From: Candidatus Bathyarchaeota archaeon
Lineage (GTDB): Archaea > Thermoproteota > Bathyarchaeia > TCS64
Direction: 5' to 3'
Assembly: GCA_014729945.1 (NCBI GenBank)
Contig: WJJC01000203.1
Coordinates: 1 to 11,180, forward strand
DNA length: 11,180 nt
The translations under genes and the position numbers were made by a program. Positions 1 through 8,234 of the stretch are shown one piece after another; within the stretch, counting starts at the first letter, position 1; each line of letters begins with the position of its first letter. Under the pieces are notes generated by a model, which was not told the DNA's origin, made no database searches, and was given only the letters and a program-made list of their open reading frames with translations.

Positions 1-1269
1 ATTATACATTGATTCAAAACCATAACCACTAGCCCTGATGTCACGATAAAGAATAGTAATATCCGCGCTAGGATCCCGTAGTTCTTTTATCACTGAAGCA
101 TGTTTTATCGCAGCCATACAACAATATTTACTACAATATGACTGATATTCAGGGTCTCGACTGCCCACGCACTGAATCATGACTATTTTTCGAGGCGACT
201 TTGTGTCACTTGGCCTAACCACAGACCCGGCTGTGGGTCCAAAGGGGTCGAGCAATCTAGCTAATTGATACTGCGTTATTACGTTATCGAGACCATATCC
301 CCATTTGGGTATACCCCTCGGGTCAAAGTCCTCGAAACCTGTTGCCAGTATAACGGAACCTACCTCGATGGTTTTTTCTCCTGTTTCTTCTTCAGGACTT
401 AGTAAAGCTGCAGGATAAACGCTTGTACACTTACCACATTTACTATTTTTTACGTGTTTCAATGCAGTCTTTGAAGGTCCTTCAGAATATACCAGTTCAT
501 AGGCTCCAGAGGCATCTGGAATAACTTCAACTGGCTGACCCTTACCTTTTTTACGTGATAGATCAAGTTTCACTGGTTTTTTCTCATAGGTTACCTTCAA
601 GCCTTGTGGAGTTCTCTCCACTTGTTTGATTATGCTATTAACATGATACTCTATACTTGGTCTTGTGAGTAACTCGATCATCCTCGGACCGCGAAGACAC
701 ATTGTGCAGTCTTCTTCAGGATAAGTCTTGCTGATGAGAGGCATAGCCCCCCCTATTGCGGGGCTCTTCTCTACTACATGGACCTTATATCCCTGATCAG
801 ATAACTCTGATGCTGCCGTCAAACCAGCTATCCCGCCGCCTACCACAAGAGCCTCTTGTGCTCTCTGATAAGTCATAATCTCTAGTGGTTCGGCTAGGTT
901 TACTTTAACTACTGCAGCATTTAACAACATTTTGGCTTTCTGTGTAGCATATGTTCTATTGGAATGAACGGAGGCTATCTGTTCTTTGGCGTTTACTAGT
1001 ACATACTTATCTGTGTGTAAACCAGCTTCTTGTATTGCTGCCTCAATTGGTTTACTGCACACGCTTCGTGTGCAAGCTAAAAAGACTAATCTATCATGAT
1101 TTTTTATCTTGTTAACTAACTTTTTCCTGTCTCCTGCTGTGCATAGAGCTCTCATCTGTTCTACTTCTTTTACCCCGGCTAGATTTCTAGCGTAATCGGT
1201 TAAAGCATTATAGTCTATATTATCGTTTAATGTGTCTCCACACGTGCATAAGATTATTTTTGTACTCAT
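1..1269 (-). CDS. hdrA: HdrA-like heterodisulfide reductase subunit A, 5'-end only (3' part beyond left edge)
   Basis: FAD-containing iron-sulfur subunit that receives electrons from the hydrogenase and distributes them (cytoplasm). 423 codons are visible, without a stop. The N-terminal region has C8/C10, LCTAG near 42-46 and an ACTRSVC segment near 65-71, followed by an NAKEQ block, as in HdrA N-terminal domains. The FAD-binding GGGIAG is at 144-149, then VEKSPAIGGAM and DCTMC (C188, C191). CVGSRD with C367, C379, C383 and C384 matches the CxnCxxxCC cluster motif of HdrA. Oddity: the inserted ferredoxin domain (about 225-295) has only C278 and C281, and the usual VCP reads VYP (Y285), so two [4Fe-4S] clusters cannot be bound there. 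ATG 1269 directly follows the mvhA stop and has AGGAGG 8 bases upstream. QmoA-like flavoproteins are the nearest alternative, but they lack this N-terminal region. The family is sure; the exact electron partners are not. Confidence 0.9.
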   Translation of the reverse strand, partial: MSTKIILCTCGDTLNDNIDYNALTDYARNLAGVKEVEQMRALCTAGDRKKLVNKIKNHDRLVFLACTRSVCSKPIEAAIQEAGLHTDKYVLVNAKEQIASVHSNRTYATQKAKMLLNAAVVKVNLAEPLEIMTYQRAQEALVVGGGIAGLTAASELSDQGYKVHVVEKSPAIGGAMPLISKTYPEEDCTMCLRGPRMIELLTRPSIEYHVNSIIKQVERTPQGLKVTYEKKPVKLDLSRKKGKGQPVEVIPDASGAYELVYSEGPSKTALKHVKNSKCGKCTSVYPAALLSPEEETGEKTIEVGSVILATGFEDFDPRGIPKWGYGLDNVITQYQLARLLDPFGPTAGSVVRPSDTKSPRKIVMIQCVGSRDPEYQSYCSKYCCMAAIKHASVIKELRDPSADITILYRDIRASGYGFESMYN

Positions 1270-2670
1270 CTAGGCTGCCTCCTTTACCTGGACCCGTTTT
1301 CCATCAACTTTCACATCAAAATCCACCATGTGGACACTGCAACTGGTGCACGGATCATAAGCTCTAACGATTTTCTCCAGTCTCCAGCATGCCTCATCTC
1401 TTTTTTCCTTTTCCACAAACTCAGGAGCATATATCTTAGCGTTTTCGTACAAATCTTGTTGAATTAAGGGATGATTGTACGTTGTTGGTGCCATAATGTT
1501 AGCATATTTGATCAACCCGTTATCATTAATCACATAGTGATGAGTCAATATACCTCTAGGAGCCTCAATGAAGGAAGCCCCCTCACCACCCCGGCTCTTA
1601 ACCGGGACCCTTATATCTGTACCAGTTATTCCAGGATCCTTAAGCATCTCCAAGACTTCTTCTTGTCCAGCGATCAATTCAGGTATTCTTGCTAGGTTAA
1701 AGCTCTGAACCTGTAGACAGGTTCTAGGGAATAATTTGAGGTATCTTTCCTCATATTCCCGGGAAACGGGCCAAGGTAATTTACTTGCGACATTAAGCCT
1801 CGCCATAGGCCCAACTCTTAGGTTTCCGTTTACGCCTTCTGGTTTATAGTATGGAACTTTTGTACTGCTGTGTTCCCATACGGCTTCCTGAATGTGATTG
1901 TAATAAAAATTTGGGTTGAATTGTTCTAGGGTTTTACCTGTCCCTGAGATTATTTTTCCCTCCCCATCATAAATATCATAGTGGTCATCGGTGCCGTTCA
2001 CCAGAGCCATAAAATTGGTTTCCACATCAGGGAACTGACTGCACACTAACCTATCCTCTTCATAAATATCGAAAACCCAGTCAGCGTAAACCTTCATGAG
2101 TTCCAATATTTCTTCCCCTTCTTCTAGAAGCTCCCGTCTACGTTCCTCTTTTAAAGCTAAGGTTTGCCCTCCGGGAACCGAGGTTACTACTTGTACTATT
2201 CGTCCTCCTACAGCCTCAACGACTTTGTTCCCATAAGCGTGAATCTTTAACGCCGCTTTACCTATCTCAGGGTATTCACCCATTAACGCGATGAAGTTAC
2301 GTGCATCTGCGGGTAATCCAACTAGATCAGGTATTGCTAAGAACGCGCTATGGAGACTATGACTAGTTACAAATCCCCCTGCATTCATTAATCGTCTTAG
2401 TTTGATTGCTGTCTCAGGCGGGGTCACACTCCATGCGTTTTCTATTGCTTTTACTGATGCAAGATGGTGACTGACATAACATATTCCACATATTCTCTGT
2501 GTTAACCTGGGAGCTTCCTCTGCTCTTTTCCCTGTGACCAAGTATTCAAAAAAACGTGGAGCCACTGTTACTTGAAATTTCAGGTCTTTTAACTCGTTAT
2601 CTTCTACTTCTACCTTTATCTTGCCCATTCCTTCTATTCGTGTTAATGGATCGATCTCTACTTTGGTCAC
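1270..2670 (-). CDS. mvhA: F420-non-reducing [NiFe] hydrogenase large subunit (MvhA-type)
   Basis: Catalytic subunit carrying the Ni-Fe active site, which splits H2 and passes electrons through MvhG towards Hdr. The start of the family signature, RIEG, is at 11-14. The L1 motif RICGIC is at 59-64 (C61, C64) and the L2 motif DPCTSCSVH at 439-447 (C441, C444, H447), so all four Ni-ligating cysteines are present and none is selenocysteine. Length (466) is normal for group 3 enzymes. A 19-residue tail follows H447; in most [NiFe] enzymes such a tail is cut off by a maturation endopeptidase, and no such protease gene lies in this window. The start is GTG 2670, overlapping the mvhG stop by 4 bases (GTGA), with AGGAGG 8 bases upstream. 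hdrA follows with no gap. Subgroup 3c is inferred from the HdrA neighbour and the similarity to MvhA. Confidence 0.95.
   Translation of the reverse strand: MTKVEIDPLTRIEGMGKIKVEVEDNELKDLKFQVTVAPRFFEYLVTGKRAEEAPRLTQRICGICYVSHHLASVKAIENAWSVTPPETAIKLRRLMNAGGFVTSHSLHSAFLAIPDLVGLPADARNFIALMGEYPEIGKAALKIHAYGNKVVEAVGGRIVQVVTSVPGGQTLALKEERRRELLEEGEEILELMKVYADWVFDIYEEDRLVCSQFPDVETNFMALVNGTDDHYDIYDGEGKIISGTGKTLEQFNPNFYYNHIQEAVWEHSSTKVPYYKPEGVNGNLRVGPMARLNVASKLPWPVSREYEERYLKLFPRTCLQVQSFNLARIPELIAGQEEVLEMLKDPGITGTDIRVPVKSRGGEGASFIEAPRGILTHHYVINDNGLIKYANIMAPTTYNHPLIQQDLYENAKIYAPEFVEKEKRDEACWRLEKIVRAYDPCTSCSVHMVDFDVKVDGKRVQVKEAA
1278..1283 (-). promoter_or_regulatory. Shine-Dalgarno of hdrA, embedded in the last mvhA codons
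   Basis: AGGAGG lies 8 bases before ATG 1269 and is part of the codons for the final Lys-Glu-Ala of MvhA. It decides the hdrA start and ties hdrA expression to the operon mRNA. Confidence 0.7.
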
Positions 2671-3536
2671 TTGTTTTTCCTCCTAGCTATCTCCGATAAA
2701 ACAGACTCAGCATAAGTGAATCTGTATAATTGCCCGGTTTGGGTCTGTGTTGAGAACTCTTTGTTTAACTGGGTTAAGAGCCCTGTCATGGCATCTATCA
2801 TAGCCATTCCCTGATCCGTTACATCTAGGCATGCTCCTCTGCATCCTTCACATGTGTTTCCTGATTGTGGACAGGGAGCACCACATCCACCCATAGTTGC
2901 TGGACCCATGCAGAAGTATCCTTGCTCCAGTAAACATCTATCTGTATCAGGTAGGTCTTCATGAATCCTCTTCAACTCTGGATCATATTCACCGAGACGA
3001 TCCCTTGGACAGTCATCACATACTTGGGTTGAATTAATCTCAGGTTCTTCGCCACTCAGAAGCGATGTTAATGTATTGGCTATATCAGTTACTTCTGGGG
3101 GACATCCGGGTATCACATACTCTACTTTTACAAAGTTCTTGATAGGATGTTGTTCTGGTAAAGATTGAAGATGCGTGGGTATCGTACCTTTGTCTGTTCC
3201 CCTCCAGTTATTGTAAATAAGATCCATAAGCTCTTCCCCTTTCTTTAAGTTAGCTAGCCCGGGGATGCCACCAAAAGCTGAACAAGCCCCAAGGGCGATA
3301 ACGATACTAGATTTCTCACGTATCTCTTTGATAATTTCTTCCTCATGAGTATTCCTTATTCCACCCTCTACTAGTGCCACATCAATATTATCAGGTATAT
3401 CTTTGGCATCAAGGAGTGTGGGAGCATAAACAGGCTCGTTGGCAGCTAATATTTCTATAAGTGCCTCATGGAGACCAAGCGCAGCTACTTGACAGCCACT
3501 GTCTCCGGCAAGCCCAATTAATAATATTCTGGCCAT
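2667..3536 (-). CDS. mvhG: F420-non-reducing [NiFe] hydrogenase small subunit (MvhG-type) with Asp in the proximal cluster motif
   Basis: Electron-transfer subunit with three iron-sulfur clusters, paired with MvhA. From memory, the sequence tracks methanogen MvhG closely: VEGGI at 56-60, GACSAFGGIPGL with C85, IPGCPPE with C145, VCDDC (C173, C176), then C201, the QGYFCMGPATMGGCGAPC block (C209, C218, C222) and CEGC (C229, C232). These supply the medial and distal clusters. The proximal motif, normally CSGC, reads DSGC: D12 (GAC codon), C15. The three other proximal ligands are intact. ATG 3536 is the only reasonable start, because an in-frame TGA lies three codons upstream; no convincing Shine-Dalgarno precedes it, unlike mvhA and hdrA. 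It is the first gene of the mvhG-mvhA-hdrA operon. No mvhD gene is seen before or between these genes. Confidence 0.94.
   Translation of the reverse strand: MARILLIGLAGDSGCQVAALGLHEALIEILAANEPVYAPTLLDAKDIPDNIDVALVEGGIRNTHEEEIIKEIREKSSIVIALGACSAFGGIPGLANLKKGEELMDLIYNNWRGTDKGTIPTHLQSLPEQHPIKNFVKVEYVIPGCPPEVTDIANTLTSLLSGEEPEINSTQVCDDCPRDRLGEYDPELKRIHEDLPDTDRCLLEQGYFCMGPATMGGCGAPCPQSGNTCEGCRGACLDVTDQGMAMIDAMTGLLTQLNKEFSTQTQTGQLYRFTYAESVLSEIARRKNK
2679..2684 (-). promoter_or_regulatory. Shine-Dalgarno of mvhA, embedded in mvhG
   Basis: AGGAGG lies 8 bases before the GTG start at 2670 and encodes part of the Arg-Arg near the MvhG C-terminus. It supports the GTG start and the GTGA overlap with mvhG. 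Confidence 0.7.
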
Positions 3537-6106: not shown

Positions 6107-7489
6107 ATGTCAATATGGAACGAGATAAAGAAAGATATTATTCAAGATATAAAGCCATCAACTAAAGAAAGAAAGCAGTTAATGAATTTCACTGAGGAAC
6201 TAATCCATGACATTAACGTCGTTCTCTCTCGTTCGGGGCTTGATGTCGTGGCCGAGTTACATGGGAGCATAGTCCATGATACATGGATTAGCGGTCAGCA
6301 GGATATCGATGTCTTTCTAGTTATAGAAGAATACAGTGAGAAAAAACAGTTAAAACAGGTACTCGACATTCTGAGAGAGAAACTGGATTGGACGTTCACC
6401 ATGGCTTATGCTGAGCATCCGTATCTAAAGACAAAGATTAATGGTTATAAACTGGATATAGTTCCCTGTTATCGAGTGGGAAAAAATGAAACGCTTTACA
6501 GCTCAACTGACAGAACCCCTCTACACACCAGATGGATAGCAACTCACCTAAAAGATCTAGGAAATGAGGTGAGACTGTTGAAACAGTTCTTGAAAACTCT
6601 CGATCTATACGGGGCTGAGATAAGGGTAGGTGGTTTCAGTGGGTACCTCTGTGAATTACTGGTGATTTATTACGGGGGTTTTTACGAGTTGATGAAAGCC
6701 ACATCTAGTTGGGGTAAAAAAGCGGTTATTACCTTTACGGATGAGGAGCCAAAGGACTTCAAAGACCCATTGATAGTTATTGATCCAGTTGATAGGTATA
6801 GAAATGTGGCCTCAGCGCTTAGAAAAGAATCATATTACCATTTTATCTCAGCAGCAAATAGTTTCATCAAAGATCCCAGCATGATCTTCTTTGAAGAAGA
6901 GCCGATTGATGCCTCCAGTGAGAGGATATTATCAATATTAAAGAAGAGGCCATCCGATATCCTCTTTTTAATTATAGAAGAAAGTAAAGCAAATGTTGCT
7001 GATGTTTTATGGGGGCAGCTACGTAAATCAAAAAAAGCCTTAAAACAAAAAATAGATAAAAAAGGTTTCAAGGTATTACGATCTACAGCTTGGAGTAATG
7101 AAGATACACGCCACATTTTGATATTCGAGTTAGAGTCCCAAAATATATCTGATGTCCTGAAACACATGGGTCCTCCAGCATATATGCTAAATAACGTGGA
7201 AGAATTCATTGAAATTTACCGGGATAACCCGGATACAATCGCCGGCCCCGAGATAAGGGGTGACAGATGGTATGTTATTATTAGACGTGATTATGCAAAC
7301 ATCAAGGATTTGATGGGGGAGCTACTCTCTGATGGAGGGAGATCCATAGGGGTCTCCAAGAAGCTGGCTGTTCGTATACTCCAGCATCACAGGGTTTTAG
7401 TGAACCAGGAGATTGAAAGCTATCTTATTGAAGGTTTTGAGGATTTTCTGTGTAAATGGTTAAGAGGAAGACCGATCTGGATTGAATAA
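6107..7489 (+). CDS. cca: Archaeal (class I) CCA tRNA nucleotidyltransferase
   Basis: Adds or repairs the 3' terminal CCA of tRNAs from CTP and ATP without a nucleic-acid template. The nucleotidyltransferase core has GS at 53-54, the two metal-binding aspartates in QQDIDVF (D66, D68) and the third in KLDIVPCYRV (D117). EIRVGGFSGYLCELL (171-185) is a family block of the central domain, and the rest forms the tail and body domains. Length 460 is in the usual range (about 430-460). From memory, A. fulgidus has Glu at the first metal ligand; here it is Asp. It has a good Shine-Dalgarno, follows thpR by 30 bases, and overlaps the next gene by 8 bases. The only tRNA gene in the window already encodes CCA, so the role there would be repair. 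Confidence 0.94.
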   Translation: MSIWNEIKKDIIQDIKPSTKERKQLMNFTEELIHDINVVLSRSGLDVVAELHGSIVHDTWISGQQDIDVFLVIEEYSEKKQLKQVLDILREKLDWTFTMAYAEHPYLKTKINGYKLDIVPCYRVGKNETLYSSTDRTPLHTRWIATHLKDLGNEVRLLKQFLKTLDLYGAEIRVGGFSGYLCELLVIYYGGFYELMKATSSWGKKAVITFTDEEPKDFKDPLIVIDPVDRYRNVASALRKESYYHFISAANSFIKDPSMIFFEEEPIDASSERILSILKKRPSDILFLIIEESKANVADVLWGQLRKSKKALKQKIDKKGFKVLRSTAWSNEDTRHILIFELESQNISDVLKHMGPPAYMLNNVEEFIEIYRDNPDTIAGPEIRGDRWYVIIRRDYANIKDLMGELLSDGGRSIGVSKKLAVRILQHHRVLVNQEIESYLIEGFEDFLCKWLRGRPIWIE

Positions 7490-8234
7490 ATACATTCCAC
7501 TGGGTGAAACACTGGATAACAAGGTAGGCGAGTTCCTGTGCTGGCCTCAATACGAGGAGAAGAGAGCCAAGAATAGAATGAGTCAATTAGAAAAGCTTGG
7601 CGTTGAAGCAGTAGCTATTGGGGGACCTCATGTCGTACTTGGAACTCCTATTCTAGGAAAGGGCCACACTGGTGTAGTGTTAAGAGCATTATATCGTGGA
7701 CAAGAGGTAGCGCTTAAGGTTCTTCGAACAGATACTAATAGACAGAGTATGAGGCGTGAAGCGGGTTTTCTATCCCATGCTAATGAGCATGGTTTGGGGC
7801 CTGAGATGTTTTGTTTTAGTCATGATTTCATTGTAATGGAGTTAATACAGGGCGAGTATTTCGGTGAGTGGGTTAGAGATAACCTAGATAATCCTTCTAT
7901 AGTACGAGCGCACATCAGGGAGATCCTAGATATTTCCTGGCGTCTTGACAGGTCTGGTCTGGATCATGGTGAATTAAACCGTATAAGGCGTCATTATATA
8001 GTTACGGAGGAGGGAATTAGGATTATTGACTTTGAGTCATCCAGTTTTGAGAGAACCCCCAGTAATCTTACCAGCACGGTACAGAGCATATTCTTGAATC
8101 ATCGCTTCGCCACTCTTCTAAAAAAGGTTCACTCAATACCTAATAAGAAGGAATTAATTGGTGCTGTTAGAGAATATAAGGGGAATTTCTCTCAGGAAGA
8201 ATATGATAGGGTTTTGCGTGTTTGTAACCTGTGA
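7482..8234 (+). CDS. COG2112 RIO-like predicted serine/threonine protein kinase
   Basis: A small archaeal kinase-like protein. Seen: the N-terminal family block ending in RMSQLEKLGVEAVAIGG (about 32-48), the glycine-rich loop GKGHTGVV (59-66), the ATP lysine in VALK (K79), a helix-C glutamate (E93), VMELIQGEYFGEW (118-130), the catalytic-loop segment GLDHGELNR (159-167) and IDFES (182-186) in place of DFG. The catalytic aspartate position of the RIO/Bud32 HGD motif is Glu164 here; I recall HGE as the norm in COG2112. The start is TTG 7482, overlapping the end of cca by 8 bases; the next in-frame ATG (codon 33) would remove conserved residues. GAGGA lies about 13 bases upstream. The substrate is unknown; the operon suggests tRNA or ribosome-related work. 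Confidence 0.85.
   Translation: MNKYIPLGETLDNKVGEFLCWPQYEEKRAKNRMSQLEKLGVEAVAIGGPHVVLGTPILGKGHTGVVLRALYRGQEVALKVLRTDTNRQSMRREAGFLSHANEHGLGPEMFCFSHDFIVMELIQGEYFGEWVRDNLDNPSIVRAHIREILDISWRLDRSGLDHGELNRIRRHYIVTEEGIRIIDFESSSFERTPSNLTSTVQSIFLNHRFATLLKKVHSIPNKKELIGAVREYKGNFSQEEYDRVLRVCNL

Follow-up and report, generated by a model that had tools for sequence, protein, structure and literature searches.

An aspartate at the first proximal-cluster position in a group 3c-like [NiFe]-hydrogenase small subunit from a lineage close to Bathyarchaeia

The window, i.e. the whole stretch of 11,180 nucleotides that was analyzed, harbors on its minus strand a gene for a hydrogenase small subunit, the gene of the large subunit directly downstream of it and part of an HdrA2-like gene (Table 1). 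Since the large subunit retains all four cysteines of the Ni-Fe site, the enzyme looks intact. The small-subunit region at 3489-3506 translates as G-D-S-G-C-Q.

Table 1. Features of the hydrogenase locus within the window
Feature	Position	Strand	Basis or remark
HdrA2-like flavoprotein, 423 aa, cut by window edge	1..1269	(-)	NCBIfam HdrA2, 310.4 bits, model positions 4-438 of 777
Large subunit, MvhA/VhuA type, 466 aa	1270..2670	(-)	Ni-Fe ligands C61, C64, C441, C444 present
Gln160 (CAA) in GGRxxH motif, His in most relatives	2191..2193	(-)	Alignment of large subunits
Small subunit, MvhG/VhuG type, 289 aa	2667..3536	(-)	ORF
Asp12 (GAC), first proximal-cluster ligand position	3501..3503	(-)	Column 12: D 126, C 146, gap 10 (282 rows, best-hit sample)
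Cys15, second proximal ligand position	3492..3494	(-)	Cys in 272/282 rows, others gap
Cys85, third proximal ligand position	3282..3284	(-)	Cys in 280/282 rows, others gap
Cys145, fourth proximal ligand position	3102..3104	(-)	Cys in 282/282 rows
Eight further Cys: 173, 176, 201, 209, 218, 222, 229, 232	2841..3020	(-)	Cys in all rows with a letter

The original prediction, which had reported an Asp codon (GAC) at residue 12 of an MvhG protein keeping C15, C85, C145 and the eight cysteines of the other two clusters, was correct in all these points, and the family was borne out by alignment with solved Mvh/Vhu-type chains. In pairwise alignments, Asp12 pairs with the first cysteine of the CSGC motif in PDB 9sfi_I, 5odc_E and 9sw2_E. 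The AlphaFold model is of low confidence at residues 11-30 (mean pLDDT 62 and 64). It was confirmed that Asp12 is a real residue of an otherwise intact MvhG/VhuG-type small subunit. A sequencing error, already thought improbable beforehand, is very unlikely, because many separately sequenced relatives share the Asp and use both possible codons (GAC in 10 and GAT in 4 of the 14 distinct Asp-type loci available at the DNA level). As neither the remaining ligands nor either reading frame is damaged, and no point in favor of an error, a frameshift or a pseudogene was found, explanations of this kind can practically be dismissed. A first ligand located elsewhere, the alternative named in the original prediction, was ruled out, since C15 is the only cysteine between residue 1 and C85. 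The sole additional cysteine beyond the ligand positions, Cys236, lies in the C-terminal domain. A rescue by a cysteine at residue 87 was rejected as well. Cys occupies this residue in 75 of the 126 Asp rows but also in 59 of the 146 Cys rows, and the window has Ala there.

Judged by its sequence features, the enzyme is a putative [NiFe]-hydrogenase resembling those of group 3c (Mvh/Vhu type, linked to Hdr), and its lineage is close to Bathyarchaeia. The small subunit is related to MvhG/VhuG and contains the eight further C-terminal cluster cysteines, the large subunit has the RICGIC and DPCxxC ligands of the Ni-Fe site, and the genes are linked to hdrA. With an NCBIfam VhuG score of 273.6 bits, which is below the cut-off of 450, the small subunit is a relative of VhuG rather than VhuG proper; the large subunit reached 322.7 against a VhuA cut-off of 800. 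The proximal cluster, which has four cysteines in group 3c, deviates by Asp12. Membership in group 1h is contradicted by the best PDB matches of both subunits, all group 3 chains, and membership in the Frh family (group 3a) by an FrhG score of 76.6 bits (cut-off 245.5). Compared with the reference enzymes, MvhAG of the HdrABC-MvhAGD complex of Methanothermococcus thermolithotrophicus (PDB 5odc) and the VhuG-type chain of 9sfi, the window differs in two respects: the references possess Cys12 and a His in the GGRxxH motif, while the window encodes Asp and Gln.

The distribution of the residue was determined in an alignment of homologues. Three protein searches, from which the best 120 of 1085, 5422 and 791 matches were taken, yielded 185 different proteins. 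With the loci added, 356 sequences were available, 320 of which scored at least 240 bits; after removal of duplicates 282 remained, made up of the window, 97 rows from loci and 184 of the proteins listed. In this best-hit sample, column 12 is occupied by Asp or Cys and by no other residue, the ten gaps stemming from sequences that end before this column, and the other 11 cluster columns contain Cys wherever a letter stands. Since the best hits are biased towards relatives of the window, the ratio of 126:146 is no census. A FastTree phylogeny of 268 rows placed the window in a clade of 106 rows (103 Asp, three Cys) with a sister group of 70 (21 Asp, 49 Cys), and the remaining 92 rows are all Cys. 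Asp thus occurs almost throughout the close relatives, the three Cys rows being the exceptions. The original prediction had named such an occurrence as a refutation, provided that it was already known to characterize a described subgroup. What stood of the original interpretation are the residue, the family and the likely role at the proximal cluster, but the Asp is a trait of a whole clade and not a peculiarity of one protein.

Among the matches listed, most of which are nameless, the named rows in or near the clade of the window belong mostly to Bathyarchaeota/Bathyarchaeia. Exceptions are P0054 (Patescibacteria bacterium) and P0068 (Promethearchaeota), labels that may be due to binning errors. 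In the class of genome G003 (Bathyarchaeota, source of locus L003), 18 of 256 genomes gave a match at E 1e-60 or better, 13 of them with Asp (eleven within the clade of the window, plus L115 and L116) and five with Cys (L113, L114, L117, L118, L119). An organism-wide explanation was rejected: genomes G003, G005 and G007 also carry a Cys-type homologue (L090, L091 and L089, respectively), hence the Asp belongs to the enzyme and not to the organism. Column 16, which is either Gln or His, was discarded as a ligand marker, because the three Cys-type members of the clade retain Gln; it marks the clade. In some rows from other lineages (L115, L116, L013, P0185), the Asp is followed by GCH rather than GCQ. 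These rows perhaps represent separate gains of Asp.

The original prediction had proposed to align the homologues and to map the two states on a tree. On a more careful tree of 94 rows, built without column 12, Cys and Asp forms interleave, and the state changes six times (bootstrap range 6-7), with at least four changes forced by the starred branches. Since both forms are mixed on one tree, the Asp form is regarded as a variant of group 3c. In topology tests, whose two groups were named after the data had been seen, a single clade of all Asp rows was rejected (AU p 9.3e-5), as was a tree in which the main clade's 60 Asp rows form a group without the Cys rows P0078, P0085 and P0079 (p 0.005). 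Asp12 is inherited, and the exchange took place more than once. Outside the main clade the branches are long and one long-branch join was flagged, so that we are unsure of the number of Asp gains there. Because the outgroups contain Cys, a gain of Asp followed by few Asp-to-Cys reversals is the simplest reading, even though change counts alone prove no direction. When the three Cys rows, metagenome proteins known from their protein sequence alone, were compared with 14 chosen Asp neighbors, column 12 was the sole column without a common residue. Thus, the exchange does not require a companion change.

The most plausible role of Asp12 is that of an iron ligand, because its column accepts only Cys or Asp, adjoins an invariant cysteine and belongs to an otherwise invariant cluster site. 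It is likely, with a probability of roughly 0.75, that Asp12 completes the ligand set of a proximal [4Fe-4S] cluster of the 3Cys-1Asp kind and tunes the electron flow from the Ni-Fe site to HdrA/MvhD. Its carboxylate and the three cysteines would hold a complete [4Fe-4S] cluster, in which Asp would be functionally close to Cys. The substitution would shift the potential of the cluster or the rate of electron transfer between the Ni-Fe site and the HdrA-bound flavin, and it would neither abolish activity nor confer O2 tolerance. A precedent exists in archaeal group 3: FrhG of the F420-reducing hydrogenase (group 3a) has a 3Cys-1Asp proximal cluster (PMC3591093, PMC3930138), and its Asp60 is reported to show clear density as a ligand (PMC3930138). 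In FrhG, however, the Asp is located at the second position of the motif (CTGD; alignment u58279) and in the window at the first (DSGC). On the other hand, Cys and Asp at column 12 could share a role other than that of a ligand. If Asp12 does not bind iron, the site would contain a [3Fe-4S] cluster, or a [4Fe-4S] cluster with water or hydroxide on the fourth iron, and Asp12 would belong to the second shell. Asp-for-Cys exchanges in other proteins can indeed yield labile iron or a three-iron cluster (PMC4070099). We consider this unlikely, since both the strict Cys/Asp alphabet and the repeated exchange are what an interchangeable ligand predicts, and since Asp60 of FrhG shows clear ligand density.

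Experiments on the Alteromonas macleodii hydrogenase point to the capability of Asp to replace a cluster cysteine. In a survey of 48 variants, Asp was nearly always the best-tolerated substitute (PMC4070099). The C78D variant was active, C78 being termed 'privileged', as of four substitutes tested none or only Asp gave activity; the reduced activity of the substituted enzymes was attributed to poor maturation (PMC4070099). C78, matched from the text of that report to its Table 1, corresponds to position 1 like Asp12, but C78D is an engineered variant in an enzyme of another group. Concerning the effect of mixed ligands on the potential, the literature is described as lacking a clear consensus, and the role of such clusters in bifurcation as poorly understood (PMC9503767). 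The carboxylate-ligated clusters of the bifurcating NfnSL (PMC9503767) occur in an unrelated protein and serve as an analogy only. Among the Cys and Asp forms of the hydrogenase studied here, sister enzymes whose only consistent difference is one ligand are a natural experiment on a carboxylate at the relay nearest to the Ni-Fe site, in an Hdr-linked system whose relay potentials should govern the splitting of energy.

In the large subunit, residue 160 is presumably the position of the histidine beside the proximal cluster (GGRxxH motif). For 98 distinct large subunits, paired with their small subunits by locus (a few loci, e.g. L010, L044 and L069, hold a second hydrogenase), raw counts that ignore kinship gave ten His and six Gln in the 16 Asp-type loci, the six Gln cases being clustered. 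The 82 Cys-type loci contained 71 His, four Asn, three Ile, two Ser and two gaps, and no Gln. A conserved histidine of the large subunit has been described to interact with the proximal cluster (PMC10017518), and in sensory hydrogenases a Gln replaces the His conserved in all others (PMC5665086); either histidine may correspond to residue 160. These data also bear on neutral drift, according to which Asp binds the cluster, the choice between Cys and Asp having no functional consequence. The reversals without consistent companion change and the general tolerance of the A. macleodii enzyme towards Asp (PMC4070099) would fit this explanation. By contrast, the restriction of Gln160 to Asp types, in the same raw counts, and the retention of Asp in all but three of the 106 members of a deep clade, despite possible reversal, do not, and drift is a possible but not a probable alternative to the ligand that tunes electron flow.

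The gene neighborhood gives hints on the partner of the enzyme. In loci L002 and L007, mvhA is followed by two HdrA2-like genes, each with a terminal MvhD (FlpD) domain. In L002, L003 and L007, HdrA terminates with this domain, and the window stops before the corresponding region. As HdrA occurs with MvhD, the partner is likely an electron-bifurcating or -confurcating complex. Judged by lengths, L133 has the same gene order as L002 and L007, with pyruvate:ferredoxin oxidoreductase-type genes upstream, and L138, which is a sister Asp type, adjoins genes for CODH and acetyl-CoA synthase. For a Bathyarchaeia genome encoding Mvh and Hdr, the electron acceptor is stated to be unknown (PMC7886697). 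CCG (HdrB-type) domains proved too unspecific as an acceptor marker, since they occur in 13 of 14 genomes. Partner architecture as the cause of Asp was also rejected, as Asp types are found with HdrA-fused MvhD (L002, L003, L007) and also alongside an additional, unfused MvhD (L013). Operon structure varies: in L004, the HdrA-like ORF after mvhA (L004:10404-11381) encodes just 326 aa, no second HdrA gene lies behind it, and this HdrA is a shortened or broken partner. In the HdrA fragment of the window, only Cys278 and Cys281 (CGKC) are present where L007 matches Fer4 domains (238-308). The domain scan gave no Fer4 match for HdrA of the window, L002 and L003. The inserted ferredoxin of the window's HdrA copy thus seems to be lost.

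The original prediction named group 1h, whose proximal cluster carries an Asp (PMC7174314, PMC5364354), as the known case of a 3Cys-1Asp cluster; this was incomplete, as FrhG provides a precedent within group 3. In group 1h (actinobacterial-type), the Asp is thought to help to cope with O2 (PMC7174314, PMC5364354). An analogous function in the enzyme studied here is highly improbable, because the neighboring genes of its relatives encode HdrA fusions, pyruvate:ferredoxin oxidoreductase and CODH/acetyl-CoA synthase. These systems are anaerobic and O2-labile. The group 1h enzyme differs from that of the window in being a group 1 hydrogenase tied to O2 tolerance; the two were compared at the level of the cluster.

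For groups 1f, 1h, 2a and 3a, replacement of a single proximal cysteine by Asp or Asn is on record (PMC3930138, PMC3591093, PMC7174314, PMC5364354). At position 1, Asp is listed for one Methanosarcina barkeri protein, YP_305362, in a table of 2014 that marks the cluster assignment as unconfirmed (PMC4070099). In the literature searched, mostly outside subscription journals, no title or abstract start described an Asp ligand for MvhG or for Bathyarchaeia, in agreement with the original prediction, according to which it is not known to be a described trait of MvhG/Hdr-linked enzymes; nor was it found there as the feature of a described subgroup. The present case adds to the known ones where the Asp sits and in which enzyme group, as well as its near-fixation within one clade and its repeated exchange with Cys. 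Tentatively, and with considerable doubt, one may go further and see here a naturally evolved switch of ligands in a hydrogenase that is linked to HdrA and probably bifurcating. In this archaeal lineage and its relatives, Cys and Asp would have been swapped several times in both directions, on some branches together with a change of the neighboring large-subunit His to Gln, so as to set the potential of the first relay or its gating. Viewed as a natural switch, the residue is of more interest than as a single oddity. Annotators should not label Asp-type sequences defective.

Proximal motifs were also inspected in other hydrogenases. In the order of L064, 17 of 149 genomes gave 21 FrhG matches, 20 of them above the cut-off with the motif CTGC (19) or CTGD (one, L189); L191, below the cut-off, has CEGC. 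The M. barkeri protein was sought among these matches, but none of the 21 has Asp at position 1. L189, compared with the 19 others, reveals a Cys/Asp exchange at position 2 in Frh too. Genomes G002, G003 and G004 encode a second, group 3b-like small subunit (L094:1489-2259, L096:1492-2253 and L095:1252-2028) of the ShyD/HydD type, scoring below the NCBIfam cut-offs, with the motif Cys-x-Gly-Asp, i.e. Asp at position 2. As the counterparts in G006 (L092) and G008 (L093) have Cys-x-Gly-Cys, this is perhaps a parallel case but not a rule. Finally, the window contains at 7482-8234 (+) an ORF of 250 aa without Pfam match, kinase-like by eye, that adjoins the CCA-adding enzyme gene, and an ORF of similar length and start is present at the corresponding place in L003, L004 and L006.
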